The notes under the pieces are model-generated. The model did not search any database. It was not told the origin of the DNA and worked only from the letters and a program-made list of their open reading frames with translations. A stretch of 64,000 nt of DNA from Thermoplasmata archaeon (lineage in GTDB: Archaea; Thermoplasmatota; Thermoplasmata; Lutacidiplasmatales; UBA184): positions 1 to 64,000 of the forward strand of contig JAGWLG010000010.1 of NCBI GenBank assembly GCA_028864975.1, written 5' to 3'. Both the position numbers and the translations under genes were made by a program. Within the stretch, counting starts at the first letter, position 1; each line of letters begins with the position of its first letter. Below are positions 9,771 through 19,623 of this stretch, in pieces.

Positions 9771-11030
9771 TCACCCCAGGGCACTGGCCAGCTCGATGGC
9801 CCTTTCCAGGACGGGGTCGCGCCCCGCCAGCAGGTCTTCGCGGGCGGCGAAGACCTCGAGGTCCGGGGTGATCCCGATCCCCTCGAATGGGCTCCCATCC
9901 GGGAAGTGGGCCCGCTTGGTCCCGACGAAGGCTCGGAGGCCCTCGGGAAAGTCAAGGATGTAGGGCTGCCCGGTGCTCCCACAGGTCGTCGACCCCACCA
10001 GCGTCGCTCGTCCCGTGTCCTTGAGCGGCATCAGGAAGTCCTCGCACGCAGAACCGCATCGCCGATCCGCCAAGGCGATCAGGCGCCCCCGGTAGCTTCC
10101 CTTCTCCGGTCGGTGGGCCCCCGAGGGGAACCAGGCCTGCAGCCCGTCCCATTCTCGTAGAGGTTCGAGGGGGGCGAGCCGCTCCTTGGTCAAGTTGAAA
10201 CCATCTCCCTCTCCCCGCTCGAGCAGGTCCAGCAGATGGACATGCGCCCGGACGAACCCCACACGCTGGGGGGTCGAGAAGGCCCATCCCCGCCATGGCC
10301 GGTCCATCAGGCGCGGGAGGAGGAGGGTCGGAGTGCTCCCTCCGGTGTTCCCGCGAACATCGATGACGATCGTGGAGGCTTGCTGGAAGTGGTGCGTGAG
10401 CTCGATCGCCCTCCTCTCGTGGTCAGGCGCTCCGAACGATGGGATGCGAAGGTAGGCGACCTTCCCTCTCCGGAGCCACCTCCCTCGGGTCCTCTCCCGA
10501 GGGGGTTCACGTCGGCCTGGGACCCGCCGCAGGGTCCATCGACGACCTTGGGTCTGGAGCGAGACGCGACGGGGGAAGAGTCGGGGCAAGGCGGTCAGGT
10601 GCCGCTTGCGAGCGTCTTCGCTCGAACCCGAGATGAATCGCTGGCGGTCCTGGTAGAAATCATGGGGAGTCGTTCCATCGATCCGTTCGAGGACCTCCCC
10701 CGCTCGGACCTCGGGAGACCATGACTCCTCGACCACCCAGTCTCGCCCGATCGGGGCCGCGCGGAAACCCAGGGACCCACCGAGAGGCTTCCAGCCCACC
10801 GGGTCGAGGTAGAATGTGTGGCCGTTCTTCAGGCTCGCGAGAAAGGCGGACATTTCGAGAGAGAAGTGGTTGCGGTCCCCTCGACCGATGGTGGAGTCCA
10901 GGAGCTTCTGATACGCTCCCTCCAAGTCGAGCCCGCCGGTCGCTTCCCAGTGGGCGAAGGCGAGGTCGACCGCGCTCCGAACGGACGAAGCGATGTAGGC
11001 CCGTCGAGCAGGGGAGAGGTCCTTCACCAA
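9771..11030 (-). CDS. S41 family (C-terminal processing/tricorn-like) serine peptidase
   Basis: IVIDVRGNTGGS, RCGSACEDF nucleophile motif, VGSTTCGSTGQP; no obvious signal peptide. Confidence 0.85.
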   Translation of the reverse strand: MVKDLSPARRAYIASSVRSAVDLAFAHWEATGGLDLEGAYQKLLDSTIGRGDRNHFSLEMSAFLASLKNGHTFYLDPVGWKPLGGSLGFRAAPIGRDWVVEESWSPEVRAGEVLERIDGTTPHDFYQDRQRFISGSSEDARKRHLTALPRLFPRRVSLQTQGRRWTLRRVPGRREPPRERTRGRWLRRGKVAYLRIPSFGAPDHERRAIELTHHFQQASTIVIDVRGNTGGSTPTLLLPRLMDRPWRGWAFSTPQRVGFVRAHVHLLDLLERGEGDGFNLTKERLAPLEPLREWDGLQAWFPSGAHRPEKGSYRGRLIALADRRCGSACEDFLMPLKDTGRATLVGSTTCGSTGQPYILDFPEGLRAFVGTKRAHFPDGSPFEGIGITPDLEVFAAREDLLAGRDPVLERAIELASALG

Positions 11031-12290: not shown

Positions 12291-14114
12291 TCACCGCGGC
12301 GCAGCGACAGCATGCCCCGCGGGGGCTCCCGAGGCGCCGTCCCCTGCAGAGCCGCCCAGCCCGCGCTCGAGCTCCGCGAGCTCCCTCGAGGTCATCCGGT
12401 GGAGGAGGGCCAGGTCGGCCGCCTCCATCACGTCCGCGCTCTCGACCGTAGAGCGTCCCTCGAACGCGGCATTCGTCCGGGCGAGCTGCTCCATCATGAC
12501 GTCCAGGTTCGCGCTCTGGTGGTCGAGGAGCGTCATGCGCGCGATAAGGGTCATGACCTTCGTCGGAAGGTTGACGCCGTGCGTCCGGTCGCGCGCCTTG
12601 AGGAGGTTCGTCCGCGTCTCCTCCTCCTCGCGCGCATACTGCTGGCGGAAGGGCTCGGGGTTCTTGCGGAACTCCAGGTTGCGTCGGATGACCTCCAGGC
12701 GCTCCTCCACCGTGGACGGGCTCGAGACCTCCACGTGGAGCGTCATGCCCGAGAGCAGGTGGTAGGCCTCCTCGTCCTCGTCCTTGAGCCCGCCCAGGAC
12801 CGCGGGGGGAAGCGCGTGGGAGACGTGCGGGGCGGACCCCTGCTTCACGGGGGGCCGGGGGAGCGAGAGCGCGGCGGTCTGCAGGACCGTGTCGACCAGG
12901 TAGGCCCCGGTTTCCTTCCCGAAGTGGATGCGCCCGGTCAGGTAGCGCTCCTCGTCGCTCCACTTGCGGTAGTTCTCGGCGCCGAGCTTGAGCCGCTCGT
13001 GGACGGGCTCCAGCACCTGGGCGAAGGAGAGGATCAAGTTGAACTTCGCGTTCCCCTCGGGCCCCCAGAGGACCACGCCCCCTAGGGAGGGGTCGATCGC
13101 GCTTAGGAGCAGGGCTCTCTTCGCCTTGTCCTGACCCACGACCGCGGAGAAGGGGAACATCGGGGCCTTGAGCCGTCGGGAGAGCTGGGCGTAGCGTCCG
13201 CGCCGGAAGATGCGGGTCTGGAAGTCCGCCTCGATCTTCGCGCGCTCGCGCTCGAGGTCCGTATGGAACTTCTCCTTGAGGCGGGACTCCTCCTCCGAGA
13301 CCCGCGCCTTCGATTCCTGCGACAGGCGGGCTTCGATGGCCTCGGACTTCCGCACCATCTCGGTCTCGAGCCGTGAGCGCTCGATGGTGAGTTGCTGGGC
13401 GCCCTTCTTCTCGGCCTCGGCCTCGAGCTCGCTCGCGCGCTTGCGGCGCTCCTCCTCGAGCTTCGAGTGTCCCTCCGCCTCCCGTTGGCGGAGCTCGACC
13501 TCCAGGTTCCTGCGAAGTTCCGCCTCGCGGGCCTTCATCCGCTCGTCGACCTGTTCGCGGAGCTCCTCCTCCCGCTTGCGACCCTTGGCCTGGTAGGTCT
13601 CCTCCAGGTCCCTGCGGTCGCGGGCGAGCTCGCGGTCGCTGGCGCGCCGGGCCTCGTCCTCGAAGGCCTTCTTGTCCAGCGCGAGCTGGGACTTGAGGTC
13701 CTGTTCCCGCTTCTCGTAGCCCTGGAGCAGCTGGACCTTGAGCGCCTCGTTCCGCTGGTCGAGCTCGTCGCGGAACTTCTGGGTGAGCTCGGTCTCCTGC
13801 CGGGTCAGAGCCTCCTGGACCTTCCGCTCGGCGTCCGCGGCGGCATCGGCCTTCGCCTCGGCAAGGGCGCGTTCGAGCTCCCGCTGCGCCTTTTCCTCGT
13901 TCTGGCCCCAGCGTCGCTCCCACTCCAGGTCGCGGTCCCGCTGGGCCTTTCCGACAGATTCCGCGATGCGACGCTCGTTCGCCGTGGCGAGCTCCCTGAG
14001 CTCGAGAACCTTCGCATCCTCGAGCTCCTTGCGGGCCTTGGCGACCCCATCGGCGATCTTCTTCTGGATGAACGCCAGTTCCGCGTCCAGCTCGTTCGTG
14101 CTCTCGGGGGCCAC
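12291..14114 (-). CDS. Coiled-coil protein fused to a degenerate ChlI/MoxR-like AAA+ domain
   Basis: ~300 aa of heptad-rich sequence, then MFPFSAVVGQDKAKRALLLSAIDPSLGGVVLWGPEGNAKF... parallel to the neighbour but with an altered P-loop. Confidence 0.85.
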   Translation of the reverse strand: MAPESTNELDAELAFIQKKIADGVAKARKELEDAKVLELRELATANERRIAESVGKAQRDRDLEWERRWGQNEEKAQRELERALAEAKADAAADAERKVQEALTRQETELTQKFRDELDQRNEALKVQLLQGYEKREQDLKSQLALDKKAFEDEARRASDRELARDRRDLEETYQAKGRKREEELREQVDERMKAREAELRRNLEVELRQREAEGHSKLEEERRKRASELEAEAEKKGAQQLTIERSRLETEMVRKSEAIEARLSQESKARVSEEESRLKEKFHTDLERERAKIEADFQTRIFRRGRYAQLSRRLKAPMFPFSAVVGQDKAKRALLLSAIDPSLGGVVLWGPEGNAKFNLILSFAQVLEPVHERLKLGAENYRKWSDEERYLTGRIHFGKETGAYLVDTVLQTAALSLPRPPVKQGSAPHVSHALPPAVLGGLKDEDEEAYHLLSGMTLHVEVSSPSTVEERLEVIRRNLEFRKNPEPFRQQYAREEEETRTNLLKARDRTHGVNLPTKVMTLIARMTLLDHQSANLDVMMEQLARTNAAFEGRSTVESADVMEAADLALLHRMTSRELAELERGLGGSAGDGASGAPAGHAVAAPR

Positions 14115-14137
14115 GCGATCGCCTTCTTCCCCGGACG

Positions 14138-16087
14138 TCAGAGGTTCTCCTCGATGACGCGCCGCAGACGCTCGGGACTGAACTCGGCCTGTTCAAAGGG
14201 TTTGCGCCGCATCCTGTGAGGCAGCGCCATCTCGGCGATCCGCCCCACGTCATCGGCGCTGACCTGGGTACGCCCCTCGAGGGCGCAGAGCGAGCGCGCT
14301 CCGCGCTCGATCATGATGTCGGCACGATGTCCGTCCACCCCGAAGGCCGTGGTGACCTTCGGGATCGCGGCGAAGAGCTTCTGGGAGATCTCGACCTTCG
14401 GCAGGATCTCCCGGCTCCGCTTGATCTTCTCCCGGATCTGTCCCTGAAGTGGCTCGAAACGGGCGCGGAAGTCCGCGGAGTCGCGTTCGAAGTCCTGCCG
14501 ACGTCGGACGATCTCCATCCGCGTGTTGAGGTCCTCGATGCCGACGATCGAGACCTGCAACGCGATTCGGTCGAGCAGCTGCGGCCGCAGGCTGCCCTCC
14601 TCGGGGTTCATCGTGCCGACCATGACGAACCTAGCGGGATAGGACACCGAGATCCCCTCGCGCTCGACGGTGACCCGCCCCATGGCGGCCGCGTCCAGGA
14701 GCACGTCCACGACGTAGTCGTCCAGGAGGTTGATCTCGTCGACGTAGAGGATGCCGCGGTTCGCCTCCGCGAGCACCCCGTGCTCGAAGGCGACCTCCCC
14801 CTCCGTGAGCATCCGGCTCACGTCCAACGTCCCCACGACCCGGTCCTCCGTCGCGTTCAACGGCAGGTCGACGACCTTGAGCGGACGCACCCGGGTGGGG
14901 ATCGCGTCGGGGGTGCGGCCCTGGTACTTCTCTGTGCACTCCCAGCACCATTCCTGGGGGCGGGCGGGGTCGCAGGAGAAGCGGCACCCTTCGACGATCT
15001 TGATCTCGGGGGTGATCTCGGTCAACCCCCGGACCGTGACGGACTTCGCGGTCCCCTTCTGTCCGCTGATGAGCACCCCTCCCACGAGGGGGTCGACGAT
15101 GTTGCAGAGCAGCGCGAGCTTCATCTTCTCCTGCCCGAGGACCCCGGAGAACGGGAAGAGCGCCGTCGCCTTCCGCCCCTTCGCTCCCATCAGCTTCGAG
15201 CGGGCTTCCTCGCGCTTCGCCTTCTTCGACTCCTCCGCGTGGGCGGCCGCGACCGCCTGCGCCTGGATCGTCGTCGGGGAGACCTCGGGCTGCTTGAGAA
15301 TGGCCTCCACCTGCACCTTGTTCTCGATCCGGCTCTCGACCTCGACCTCGGTCACCCCCGTTCCTCCCTCGAGGGTCGCCCGGAGCTGCCCCACCTGGAC
15401 CCCCGCCATCCCGCCACCCCCGGAGCCCGCCTGGGCGAGGGCTTCGCTGCGCTTCTTTGCCCCCTCGATGAGGAGGGCCCCGCAGTTCGTGCAGGAGATC
15501 GCGTCCGGCTCGACCGGCGCGTCGCACGAGGCGCAGCGCATCTCGCCGACCTCGAGCTCGGCCCCACACGTCGGGCAGGAGGAGGCGTGGAACGGGACAG
15601 GAGAGGAGCAGGTGGGGCAGAGCGCCTCGGGGTTCGTGAGCGGCTGTTTGCAATGCGGACAGAAGAGCGCCTCGGCCGGCACGAGGGCGCTACAATGCGC
15701 GCACTTGCAGCTCTCTGGGTCGAAGGCCGCCCCGCATCTTGCGCACCGGTCCGCGTAGACCGAGGTGACGGCCCCGCAGGCCGGGCAGAGCGACTCGTCC
15801 CCGACGAAGCGCTCCTCGCCCAGGACCTCCCCGACCAGGGCCTCGGTGTCGGGGTGGGCCCCTGGCTCTTCGACCGTGGGCAGCTCCGGGGTCGCCTCCT
15901 CCAGGAGCCCCTCGAGCTGCGCCGCGAGCTCGTTCACGGACTCATCGGGGGCGAACTCCTCGCCGTTCCCCTCCCCCTTGCCGTTGGTCGGAGGAGTGCC
16001 CTCCCCGCCCTCCGGTTCTGGGTCGGTGGGACGCGGCTCTTCAGGAGGAGGGACCGGGACCATGAAGCGCACCTCTTGAAGGCGCAT
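14138..16087 (-). CDS. Zinc-ribbon (x4) ChlI/MoxR-like AAA+ ATPase
   Basis: CPACG..CARC, CAHC..CPHC, CPTC..CPTC, CASC..CTNC; LFPFSGVLGQEKMKLALL, GQKGTAKS, ILYVDEINLLDD, FVMVGTMNPEEGSLRPQLLDR. Confidence 0.93.
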   Translation of the reverse strand: MRLQEVRFMVPVPPPEEPRPTDPEPEGGEGTPPTNGKGEGNGEEFAPDESVNELAAQLEGLLEEATPELPTVEEPGAHPDTEALVGEVLGEERFVGDESLCPACGAVTSVYADRCARCGAAFDPESCKCAHCSALVPAEALFCPHCKQPLTNPEALCPTCSSPVPFHASSCPTCGAELEVGEMRCASCDAPVEPDAISCTNCGALLIEGAKKRSEALAQAGSGGGGMAGVQVGQLRATLEGGTGVTEVEVESRIENKVQVEAILKQPEVSPTTIQAQAVAAAHAEESKKAKREEARSKLMGAKGRKATALFPFSGVLGQEKMKLALLCNIVDPLVGGVLISGQKGTAKSVTVRGLTEITPEIKIVEGCRFSCDPARPQEWCWECTEKYQGRTPDAIPTRVRPLKVVDLPLNATEDRVVGTLDVSRMLTEGEVAFEHGVLAEANRGILYVDEINLLDDYVVDVLLDAAAMGRVTVEREGISVSYPARFVMVGTMNPEEGSLRPQLLDRIALQVSIVGIEDLNTRMEIVRRRQDFERDSADFRARFEPLQGQIREKIKRSREILPKVEISQKLFAAIPKVTTAFGVDGHRADIMIERGARSLCALEGRTQVSADDVGRIAEMALPHRMRRKPFEQAEFSPERLRRVIEENL

Positions 16088-16220: not shown

Positions 16221-16260
16221 ATGACCTGCGGGACCCGCAAGGGGGGATCCCGCAGGTCAT
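16221..16260. promoter_or_regulatory. Perfect 13-bp inverted repeat overlapping the start codon of the 16259 gene
   Basis: ATGACCTGCGGGA (16221-16233) and TCCCGCAGGTCAT (16248-16260); TATA-like CGTTTAAG about 25 bp upstream. Confidence 0.8.
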
Positions 16261-17560
16261 GGGGGTCCTCGAGGGTATCAAAGGCTCGTTCTGGCCCTCC
16301 GGCAAGAGGGGCCTCGGTTCTCCGCTTTTCCTCGAGGAGGATGGTCCGATCCTCGGCGTCATCGACGACATCTTCCTCGACAAGAAGTCCGGACAGCCGG
16401 TCGCGTACCGCGTGCTGGCGAGCGGACAGTACCTCGAGGTCCCAGCCGAGGCCGTCACGGAGACCCCCGGGGGTTACATCTACCGCTCCCCCTGGTTCGC
16501 GGAGGCGGATGCGCTCGTCCGGAAGCTCGAGAGCCAGGAGCTCCTCATGCCCGAGCTCCTCTTCTCCTCCGTCGCGACCTCCGACGCCGACCGACGGCTC
16601 CTGGAGAGCGCGGTCGAGCGCTCTCCCGCGCTCAAGAAGATGGTCTCCCAGGCGACCGAGCTCTACCAGGGACTGTCCCCGCGCATCGACGCGCTCGAGA
16701 AGGAGAAGTACAAGGTCGTGGGAGAGGTCGCGGACCTCGCGGAGGGGCTCATGACGGGCCGCCTTCCCAAGGACGTCCATCGGGAGCGGTTCGTCGCGCT
16801 CAAGCGTCGTCTCCAGGTCTTGGATGCTTCCCTCCACCGAGGGGAGTCGCTCCGCCGTCGGCTGGAATCCATCCCGTTCGTCACGCTCGCCAAGAAGCCC
16901 GAGGTCGCCGGGGCCGGTCTCCCCTCGCTCCCTGCTGGAGCGATGGCGGGGGGCCGCCCCTCCGCCTTGAGCGCCGCCATGCTCCCCGGGTCCCCTGCGG
17001 GGGTCCGCCCCCCTCCCGGGGCCGGGGAGGAGTGGAAGCGTATCCGCAAGTTCCGCGTCCTGAAGGCGGAGGCCACGCTCCGCCAGAGAGAGGAGTCGCT
17101 CCACCGGATGGAGCAGGAGCTCCAGAAGACGGGGGGGGTCTCCCCCGAGCTCGTCCAGTCGCTCTCCCAGAACTACGACAAGCTCGCCAAGGCGATCGCC
17201 CAGGGCGGCCCCGACGGGCTCAAGAAGGAGATCGAGCGGATCGTCCAGGACAACGCCCAGAAGACGGCCAAGACGGAGACGAAGGCCCTCGGCTCGGCGC
17301 TCGGTTCCCCTGCCGCCTCGAGCCTCGGCAGCGCTCCCCCGGGGAAGACCTGTCCGCTCTGTGCCGAGCCGCTCACGGGGCGCGAGACCACCTGCCCCGG
17401 CTGCCAGGCCGACCTCAAGACCTTGGAAGAGGCGAAGGAGGGGTCGACGGGGCCCAACGGGGCCCAGAAGTTCTTCCGTGGCGGCGGAGCGACTAAGATG
17501 GGGGTCGTGCTGCTCATGGCGGCCGGCGCGACGTTCCTCTCCTGGTTCGTCCTACGTTAG
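16259..17560 (+). CDS. PRC-barrel-like N-terminal domain, helical region, zinc ribbon and C-terminal TM anchor
   Basis: GPILGVIDDIFLDKKSGQPVAYRVLASGQYLEVP; CPLCAEPLTGRETTCPGC; C-terminal MGVVLLMAAGATFLSWFVLR; in-frame internal ATG of track ORF 14216-17560. Confidence 0.78.
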   Translation: MGVLEGIKGSFWPSGKRGLGSPLFLEEDGPILGVIDDIFLDKKSGQPVAYRVLASGQYLEVPAEAVTETPGGYIYRSPWFAEADALVRKLESQELLMPELLFSSVATSDADRRLLESAVERSPALKKMVSQATELYQGLSPRIDALEKEKYKVVGEVADLAEGLMTGRLPKDVHRERFVALKRRLQVLDASLHRGESLRRRLESIPFVTLAKKPEVAGAGLPSLPAGAMAGGRPSALSAAMLPGSPAGVRPPPGAGEEWKRIRKFRVLKAEATLRQREESLHRMEQELQKTGGVSPELVQSLSQNYDKLAKAIAQGGPDGLKKEIERIVQDNAQKTAKTETKALGSALGSPAASSLGSAPPGKTCPLCAEPLTGRETTCPGCQADLKTLEEAKEGSTGPNGAQKFFRGGGATKMGVVLLMAAGATFLSWFVLR

Positions 17561-19623
17561 GTCGGTCCGCGCGCAGCGGATGCGGGGTCCTTTCCCCCGG
17601 CTCCGGCCGGTCTGTCCGCTTTTCCGTTACGGGGAGGTTTCCACTCGCGGGCCGGGGGACGTCGGTGGCCCGTGCCCGGCTCCGTGTTCTCCTCGGGACG
17701 CTCACGCTGCTCGTCCTCGTTGGTCCCCTTGGGCGGTCGCGGTGCCTTCGGCTTCAGGCCCCCGGACCCCCTCTCTCGGCGGGCCCGTTCGAGACGGTGG
17801 ACCCGGGTGCGGAGCAGGATGATTGCCCCGATGACGGCCCCGAGGCCGCCCACCTCGATCAGGAAGACCGGGATGAGCTGAGGGGGCACGGGGGGCACGG
17901 TCATGGTGAGCCGGATCTGCTGGTTGTCCGAGGTCACCTGCACCCGGGAGGCGGGGGCGCTGTACCCCGTGCCCTGGGCGACCGCCGAGACCTCGTAGGC
18001 CCCCACGAAGGTGTCGAGCCCCTCGAGGGTGACGACGTCCGTGGGGAGGAAGTGCCCGACATCCCCCTGCGCGTTCACCCCTAGGACCACGCAGGCGACG
18101 TTCGGGACCGTGCTGCACAACGAGACCTGGACCGAGGAGGCCGGGACCGAGGGTGGGGAGATGGGTAGCACGCTCACCAGCACGTAGCGGAAGACATGCA
18201 CGGCGACCTCGGCGGAGACCGTACTGATCCCGGCGATGGAGGCGGAAGCACCCCCCGTTGAGACGACCGTCGGGGTCCCCCAGTTGTAGACGCTCACGTT
18301 GGCGCTCCCCAGGACCGAGATCGCGGGCGCGCTCGCGTTCGTCAGGTTCACCCAGGGATTGTAGAAGACCATCGGGAACCCGAAGTGGGAGCTTCCGTTG
18401 GCCGTGAAGTTCCCCGTGGCCGCCGAGGTCACGGACGCGGCGCCGGGTCCGAAGCTCGAGTTCTCGACAGCCACGTTGACCGAGGAGGCGACCGCGAGGA
18501 CCGAAACCTGCGCATGGGCGATCGAGAGCTGGTGCAAGGGTCGAGCGATGGTCAGGTCGTTCACGACGACCTGGTCCGACGCGCTCCCCGTGGAACCCAG
18601 GCTCACATCGGTGGTGGCGTTGAGCGCCACGCCCGAGAGGACCGCGTCGTCCACCCCGAAGGAGGTCACGCTTTGCGGCAGGGAGAGGTTGACCACATGG
18701 ACCGGCACCGACGCCGAGACCCCTTGCAGGAGGACCTCGCCCACGCTCCCGCTCACGTTCAGCCAGTGGACATCGGAGCCCGAGTCGCTGAGCTCGGAGA
18801 GGGACCCCTCGAAGGACATCCGCGTGATCCGCGCGCCCCCCGGGGTCGCGCTGGGTCCGCCCGCGCTCCCGTCCAGCACCCCCCCGTTCGCCACCTGGAC
18901 GTTCCCGCCTCCGGCGGCCAGAAGGCTCCCGTTGGTGTAGAAGAACCCCCCCGCGACGGAGAGCCGGGAGAACGGGCCGAGGATGAGCGTGGAGGTGGGC
19001 GAGAGGGTCAGGTTCCCTCCGGTGTCGATCGTGAGGCTCCCGCTCACGAAGAGCCGAAGCGAGAGGCCCTTCTCCACCGAGAGGAAGGAGCTCGGTCCCA
19101 CGGTGAGGCCGCCCGCGACGTTCAGGAAGAGCGTGCCGTTGCCCGAGGCGGAAGCGTTGACCACGATGCCGTCCGCCCCTGAGACCACGAGGTTGCCGCC
19201 GGCGGCGATGTCCAGGTCCTCGTTGAGGTAGCAAGGAGAAGGGGTGGCGAACCCGGGAGGGGAGGCGGTGTTGAACGTGCTGGTCAAGGGGGAGATCAGA
19301 CCCTGGGCGCTGACGCAGTTCGGGAGCGGCCCCTGGGGCGTCGCCCCGATTTCGGGGCGTGCGCTCGGGAGCGAGGCAGGGGCGGGGTCGGAGGTAGTCG
19401 CGTGCGTCACGGTTCCCCTCTCGGAGGGGGCCGCCGTCAGAGATGTCGGCGCTCCCCCCCGTGCTCCGAGGTCTCGCGGGGCCGTGCTCGCGCCGAGAGC
19501 GTGGAGCGGGCCCTCCAAGCTGCCGAGGCTCAGGAGGAGCAGAACGAAGAGCGCGAGGCAGCTCGCCGCGAAGAGGTCCCCCCTCGCTCGTGCGGGATCG
19601 GAAGGCTCGCGGACGTCGCGCAT
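17557..19623 (-). CDS. Exported surface protein (N-terminal signal/TM, Ser/Val/Gly-rich beta region, C-terminal TM and basic tail)
   Basis: AASCLALFVLLLLSLG; many NxS/T sequons; PVFLIEVGGLGAVIGAIILLRTRVHRLERARRERG. Confidence 0.8.
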   Translation of the reverse strand: MRDVREPSDPARARGDLFAASCLALFVLLLLSLGSLEGPLHALGASTAPRDLGARGGAPTSLTAAPSERGTVTHATTSDPAPASLPSARPEIGATPQGPLPNCVSAQGLISPLTSTFNTASPPGFATPSPCYLNEDLDIAAGGNLVVSGADGIVVNASASGNGTLFLNVAGGLTVGPSSFLSVEKGLSLRLFVSGSLTIDTGGNLTLSPTSTLILGPFSRLSVAGGFFYTNGSLLAAGGGNVQVANGGVLDGSAGGPSATPGGARITRMSFEGSLSELSDSGSDVHWLNVSGSVGEVLLQGVSASVPVHVVNLSLPQSVTSFGVDDAVLSGVALNATTDVSLGSTGSASDQVVVNDLTIARPLHQLSIAHAQVSVLAVASSVNVAVENSSFGPGAASVTSAATGNFTANGSSHFGFPMVFYNPWVNLTNASAPAISVLGSANVSVYNWGTPTVVSTGGASASIAGISTVSAEVAVHVFRYVLVSVLPISPPSVPASSVQVSLCSTVPNVACVVLGVNAQGDVGHFLPTDVVTLEGLDTFVGAYEVSAVAQGTGYSAPASRVQVTSDNQQIRLTMTVPPVPPQLIPVFLIEVGGLGAVIGAIILLRTRVHRLERARRERGSGGLKPKAPRPPKGTNEDEQRERPEENTEPGTGHRRPPAREWKPPRNGKADRPAGAGGKDPASAARGPT

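Follow-up and report, generated by a model that had tools for sequence, protein, structure and literature searches.

Why should an archaeon without a detectable chelatase keep a ChlI-type AAA+ motor, and why is this motor encoded beside a second AAA+ protein that has lost its catalytic motifs? The question is raised by two genes in a 64,000-nucleotide stretch of DNA from a Thermoplasmata archaeon (assembly GCA_028864975.1, contig JAGWLG010000010.1, positions 1 to 64,000; hereafter the window). Both are on the minus strand, the zinc-ribbon AAA+ gene (14138-16087) upstream and the dead AAA+ gene (12291-14114) downstream. The answer proposed here is that they probably encode parts of a chelatase-derived remodelling machine, built of AAA+ and von Willebrand factor A (vWA) proteins, that operates without a chelatase: a motor and a dead bridging subunit, with the role of ChlD split, a separate vWA protein, and a PRC-barrel membrane protein as dock. 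The features of the pair are listed below, with the type of evidence in parentheses.

14138-16087, minus strand: 649-residue AAA+ ATPase of ChlI type, predicted active motor, with four zinc ribbons at its N-terminus (motifs, NCBIfam, PDB).
15482-15787, minus strand: four-zinc-ribbon array, residues 101-202, eight CxxC motifs (CxxC spacing).
15041-15064, minus strand: Walker A GQKGTAKS, intact (alignment).
14723-14746, minus strand: Walker B YVDEINLL, intact (alignment).
14594-14617, minus strand: sensor 1 GTMNPEEG, intact (alignment).
12291-14114, minus strand: coiled-coil and ChlI-type AAA+ protein, predicted to be catalytically dead, 607 residues, GTG start (motif loss, phmmer, Foldseek).
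13161-14093, minus strand: long helical region, probably coiled coil, residues 8-318 (structure prediction).
12366-13160, minus strand: pseudo-AAA+ domain with lid, residues 319-583, from which the Walker B segment is deleted (model, Foldseek, alignment).
13041-13064, minus strand: Walker A in degenerate form, GPEGNAKF, with the Lys retained and Phe at the Ser/Thr position (alignment).

Both open reading frames were found where an earlier note on this DNA had placed two adjacent, co-directional genes with a 23-bp gap. Coding in the downstream gene is supported by codon-position composition, and both genes are kept in close relatives.

Residues 311-647 of the upstream protein match ChlI models (E 3e-118 in NCBIfam, E 5e-98 against ChlI in the PDB), and the protein has the ChlI fold and lid. 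All of its motifs are intact, including the arginine finger and sensor 2, and the features ascribed to it by the earlier note (GQKGTAKS, DEINLL, GTMNPEEG and four tandem zinc ribbons) can all be read in the sequence. The ribbons correspond to eight CxxC motifs spaced by exactly 14 residues, a spacing that family f1 and Ca. Haladaptatiplasma share and from which family f2 departs only slightly. The scores lie below the curated equivalog cut-offs (394.6 versus 466.95 bits for TIGR02030, and 475.3 versus 779.45 bits for TIGR02442); the protein is a ChlI homologue, and not an annotated equivalog of either family. Its motor domain carries a four-cysteine insert common to CobN-linked archaeal relatives.

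The downstream protein had been described as having a P-loop without Ser/Thr, no Walker B and about 300 residues of coiled coil, and each of these points was borne out by alignment or prediction. The N-terminal ~310 residues are predicted to be almost wholly helical (from about residue 8 to 314), and the last ~265 structured residues form a ChlI-type AAA+ domain, confirmed by hidden Markov model (HMM) search and structure prediction. This region matches solved ChlI structures by phmmer (E 7e-24), and the 18 best Foldseek matches of the AAA+ domain model are all ChlI/BchI. The AlphaFold model of the full-length protein is poor (predicted local distance difference test, pLDDT, 58); that of the AAA+ domain alone, from a 35-row alignment, is usable at the P-loop and lid, with values below 50 in the centre of the domain. 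In the window's protein, 59 residues are gone (32 residues versus 91), including the cysteine insert and Walker B, while sensor 1 has changed from N to K, the arginine finger from R to G, and sensor 2 from HR to AN.

These losses are shared by the whole family, as judged by comparing ten of its members with 20 intact relatives. The P-loop glycines and lysine are kept, and the Ser/Thr is replaced by Phe, Tyr or Arg (Ser is kept in one paralogue). Walker B is absent from all ten, the distance from the P-loop helix to the next conserved helix being 26-36 residues versus 88-91. The sensor 1 Asn and the sensor 2 His are likewise lost in 10 of 10 and the arginine finger in 8 of 10, and in none of the relatives does this protein have an intact ATPase site. 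To judge from the motifs, the dead AAA+ protein would be unable to hydrolyse ATP. One genome (G020:C63, L048:9053-12157) encodes a second, longer copy of 1034 residues, located apart from the zinc-ribbon AAA+ gene, which keeps the Walker A Ser (GREGSGKS) and has no Walker B.

Such a protein might simply be a copy of the motor in decay, without a part in the ring, its adjacency merely inherited. It did arise by duplication within the same ChlI clade, and its catalytic motifs are lost. However, the ratio of non-synonymous to synonymous substitution rates (dN/dS) between two species of the window's genus is 0.14 for the dead domain, versus 0.15 for the active partner, and the dead domain is therefore constrained by purifying selection. 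Moreover, the same motifs are lost clade-wide while other residues are invariant, and the dead AAA+ gene stands in an operon in two classes, so that decay is hardly credible as an explanation. The dead family forms one fully supported clade, inside a chelatase-free Thermoplasmata group of ChlI proteins and apart from the methanogen-type ChlD. With respect to its sister group, the approximately unbiased (AU) test rejected neither a second active AAA+ (p 0.138) nor the zinc-ribbon AAA+ (p 0.115).

The inheritance of the pair was followed in 101 genomes of relatives and, in a wider search over the phylum, in 390 genomes. Most are metagenome-assembled genomes (MAGs) that are 64-98% complete (the window's assembly is about 90% complete), and single absences are therefore weak evidence. 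The dead AAA+ gene occurs in 12 of the 101, all of them Thermoplasmata MAGs. The window's family contributes all four genomes of the window's genus and five of genus g3, f2 contributes both of its genomes, and f9 a single one, Ca. Haladaptatiplasma halalkaliphilum. The zinc-ribbon AAA+ gene is present in all 12 carriers, and both genes are missing from the remaining genera of the window's family. The two lie next to each other in f1 and the f9 genome and at separate places in f2. This co-occurrence, together with the absence of an intact site, supports the earlier suggestion of a hetero-AAA+ pair with one active and one inactive member, although the complex itself is something we infer.

The pair is not a cobaltochelatase or magnesium chelatase, because CobN/ChlH is absent from all 12 carriers, and that identity was ruled out. 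In the window's own genome, about 90% complete, CobN, ChlH and BchH were not found genome-wide in a search that detected its positive controls; the earlier statement that chelatase genes are lacking thus extends to the genome. The strongest rival explanation is a metal-centre insertion machine, in which the AAA+/vWA module would load a metal or cofactor into some apo-enzyme. The closest characterised relatives have a part in metal insertion, NorQD serving nitric oxide reductase, CoxDE CO dehydrogenase and ChlID magnesium chelatase (PMC13036017, PMC3471820, PMC10653834), and both the four zinc ribbons of the motor and the four-cysteine insert found also in the CobN-linked archaeal relatives would suit such a task. 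Against this, the CobN/ChlH subunit is missing from every carrier, and no metalloenzyme recurs as a neighbour in the loci inspected, where surface and PRC proteins recur instead. We consider metal insertion unlikely, but deserving of more weight than the other alternatives.

The earlier note had seen no vWA partner nearby, which holds for the window but neither for its genome nor for its relatives. The genome encodes a stand-alone ChlD-type vWA protein of 426 residues (G000:C104), on a different contig from the pair, which matches the C-terminal vWA half of TIGR02442 (6e-29) and TIGR02031 (5e-20). In G003 an orthologue is encoded close to the pair and in G099 next to it, and AAA+ and vWA proteins are encoded together in G003, G099 and G110. 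The vWA gene belongs to the operon of the pair itself in Ca. Haladaptatiplasma and in G110, both distant relatives (the second from another class). Eleven of the 12 carriers have the protein (as a fragment in G020), the exception being G002, an absence of the weak kind noted above; a vWA fragment was also found in one non-carrier (G019, 7% contamination). AAA+ and vWA are on separate chains in f1, f2, G099 and G110, unlike in ChlD, which carries both domains in a single polypeptide. The metal-ion-dependent adhesion site (MIDAS) of the vWA domain, DxSxS, is intact in f13, f18, f8 and G110. In f2 the ChlD-type vWA protein (L102:9083-11773, L103:9331-12021) has an N-terminal extension of ~480 residues with no identified domain.

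A further candidate component is encoded upstream of the pair, on the opposite strand.

16259-17560, plus strand: protein with PRC barrel, coiled coil, zinc ribbon and C-terminal transmembrane (TM) helix (co-occurrence with the dead AAA+ gene).

This gene is present in exactly the 12 carriers of the dead AAA+ gene among the 101 genomes, plus one marginal match (E 8e-6). Counted naively, without correction for relatedness, the exact probability of this agreement is about 1e-15 if genomes are taken as units and 1.5e-5 if genera are. The PRC domain scores 13.5 bits in the window's member and 28.0 bits in an f2 relative, the Pfam cut-off being 21.2. PRC/coiled-coil modules are also found outside the window's class, in the same phylum (L129-L140), as N-terminal modules beside a signal-peptidase-I-like membrane protein; in L139, the sole member scanned, the module is fused to PAS and HisKA domains. 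The PRC module of that other class, beside a signal peptidase, is in a different context.

The PRC protein also brings to mind an accessory of cell division or membrane remodelling, in which it would resemble CdvA or the PRC-barrel division proteins and the motor would act like Vps4. Haloarchaeal division does involve PRC-barrel proteins, CdvA begins with a PRC domain (PMC11188069), and weak CdvA matches were obtained (PF18822, E 0.012; NF041007, E 0.002, the latter for a relative with the N-terminal module alone). These matches are, however, far under the cut-offs (16 of 30 bits for PF18822 and 17.5 of 350 bits for NF041007, again in the relative), and the distribution is patchy within a family. 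SepF is nearly ubiquitous whether or not the module is present, so that no complementary pattern is seen and the module does not replace the division machinery. A division role is accordingly rated as distinctly improbable.

In Ca. Haladaptatiplasma the PRC, vWA, dead AAA+ and zinc-ribbon AAA+ genes and a beta-helix TM protein form one cluster. In G110, where the 390-genome search detected the pair, six genes follow each other with gaps of less than 12 bp, in the order beta-helix TM protein, two helical proteins, zinc-ribbon AAA+ (with two ribbons), coiled-coil dead AAA+ and vWA; here too Walker B is absent from the dead protein, as read from its sequence. The vWA gene of G110 converges with a gene for a signal-peptidase-like protein. 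This protein has a homologue next to the PRC gene in other genomes from outside the window's class, a hint of a link to secretion. In the zinc-ribbon AAA+ protein of G110 (L147:10847-12736) a DUF835 domain separates the ribbons from the AAA+ core, and the two helical proteins (L147:12738-14669) have a common C-terminal motif and no family match.

In other ARRANGEMENTS (f6, f9, f13, f18), a related AAA+ protein with or without zinc ribbons is followed by a second ChlI-type AAA+ protein of ~350 residues, with TM proteins upstream; these families also have separate vWA clusters, in which the AAA+ domains are degenerate. Four such second subunits from f6 and f9 (L055:4878-5945, L109:5457-6527, L058:10142-11182, L054:9853-10902) have a natural DQ in place of DE at Walker B, the classic substitution with which ATP is bound and not hydrolysed. 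Loss of hydrolysis may therefore be recurrent, and catalysis in the second AAA+ subunit may have been lost more than once.

As a last alternative, the module might serve in phage defence or conflict, as the MoxR-vWA ternary systems do. These share the AAA+ clade and the vWA partnership (PMC7159879), and inactive enzyme domains are a theme among them; the patchy distribution would also fit. However, neither the AAA+ nor the vWA proteins have a PADLOC match, the bpMoxR match is far under its cut-off, and no effector or hypervariable component was seen, the components being conserved and under purifying selection. Defence is thus a very remote prospect, and the division and defence readings both have little support.

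Comparison with known systems shows what the module has kept. Magnesium chelatase (ChlI/ChlD) and archaeal cobaltochelatase ChlID (TIGR02442) belong to the same AAA+ family, and ChlI structures are the top matches of both proteins of the pair. ChlI/ChlD combines one active with one inactive AAA+ subunit, as is predicted for the pair, and has a ChlD-type vWA domain; the four-cysteine insert of the motor is shared with CobN-linked archaeal relatives. Unlike ChlI/ChlD, the module lacks ChlH/CobN and distributes the role of ChlD over two genes (dead AAA+ and vWA); its dead subunit has the long helical N-terminus and no Walker B segment, its motor has four zinc ribbons, and a PRC membrane protein is co-inherited. 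The MoxR-vWA pairs (NorQ-NorD, CoxD-CoxE, RavA-ViaA) also join an AAA+ motor of the helix-2-insert clade to a vWA co-chaperone that contacts the target, as when NorQ partners the vWA protein NorD (PMC13036017). The module differs in belonging to the ChlI subclade and not to MoxR proper, in its extra dead AAA+ subunit and in having no known metalloenzyme target. In the arCOG01314-associated archaeal system, MoxR AAA+ and vWA proteins occur with Ig-like and S-layer proteins (PMC5898192); it resembles the module in its archaeal operons of AAA+, vWA and membrane-anchored surface proteins and in its predicted role in secretion or at the surface, but has a COG0714 AAA+ and a secreted vWA protein, whereas the vWA protein of the module is of ChlD type with no evident signal. 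CdvA and the archaeal PRC-barrel division proteins share a PRC barrel followed by a coiled coil with the neighbouring membrane protein, which in contrast to CdvA has a zinc ribbon and a C-terminal TM helix, in genomes that retain SepF.

In the favoured chelatase-free remodelling machine, the zinc-ribbon AAA+ protein, as the sole subunit with a complete ATPase site, would drive the ring. The coiled-coil dead AAA+ protein, with its ChlI fold and P-loop Lys, would replace the AAA+ half of ChlD as a structural or bridging subunit, much as ChlD, for which no ATPase activity has been detected, bridges ChlI to its target (PMC10653834, PMC6604950). The stand-alone vWA protein would replace the other half of ChlD and contact the target, and the PRC protein, with its C-terminal membrane helix, probably docks the assembly at the membrane. 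The machine would probably act on a membrane or cell-surface protein, for example one like the TM-anchored surface proteins that share its operon in other families. Sequences, lost motifs, conservation, co-occurrence and operon organisation were observed directly; the loss of hydrolysis, the physical complex, its docking and its target are what we infer for the module.

Several observations weigh against this proposal. The dead subunit has lost the arginine finger that a mixed single ring would need, and the ring arrangement is therefore uncertain; that of ChlI/ChlD itself is unresolved (PMC10653834). The vWA gene is on another contig in the window's genome, and its MIDAS is degenerate in f1 and f2 (DxSxY for DxSxS) and in G099. 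The two AAA+ genes are apart in f2, and the PRC gene is outside the operon in f2 and G110; in G110 the PRC/coiled-coil protein is on another contig. Finally, no detectable homology was found by HMM between the surface protein of the window, described below, and the beta-helix family of f2, f9 and G110.

We suggest tentatively, at somewhat less than even chances, that this is a previously undescribed machine of at least two Thermoplasmatota classes for building or remodelling surface or membrane complexes, in which a chelatase-type motor, an obligatorily dead coiled-coil AAA+ subunit and a detached vWA protein are docked by the PRC protein. No description of the module was found in the open-access library searched, subscription papers not being covered. 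If the proposal is true, the motor design of ChlI/ChlD is at work in cells that have no chelatase, and this is relevant to the question of how such motors pass force to their target. The natural split of the ChlD role, with a dead AAA+ half, would let structural and catalytic roles be told apart, and concrete partners (the PRC protein, the vWA protein and a surface protein) would be provided for uncharacterised archaeal AAA+ genes.

The surface protein is encoded beside the PRC gene.

17557-19623, minus strand: secreted, TM-anchored surface protein, kept in the genus (neighbourhood).

The beta-helix proteins of f2, f9 and G110 share about 26-28% identity over ~700 residues and are homologues. 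An HMM gave no support to the idea that the window's protein is the same surface protein; it is possibly an analogue of the beta-helix TM proteins in the operons of the other families.

Downstream of the pair, the aminotransferase, S41 peptidase and response-regulator genes were considered as parts of the module and dropped. The S41-family peptidase gene (9771-11030) has no match at the corresponding place in two close relatives inspected, and in the other genus the pair is followed by dCTP deaminase-like and histone-deacetylase-like genes instead.

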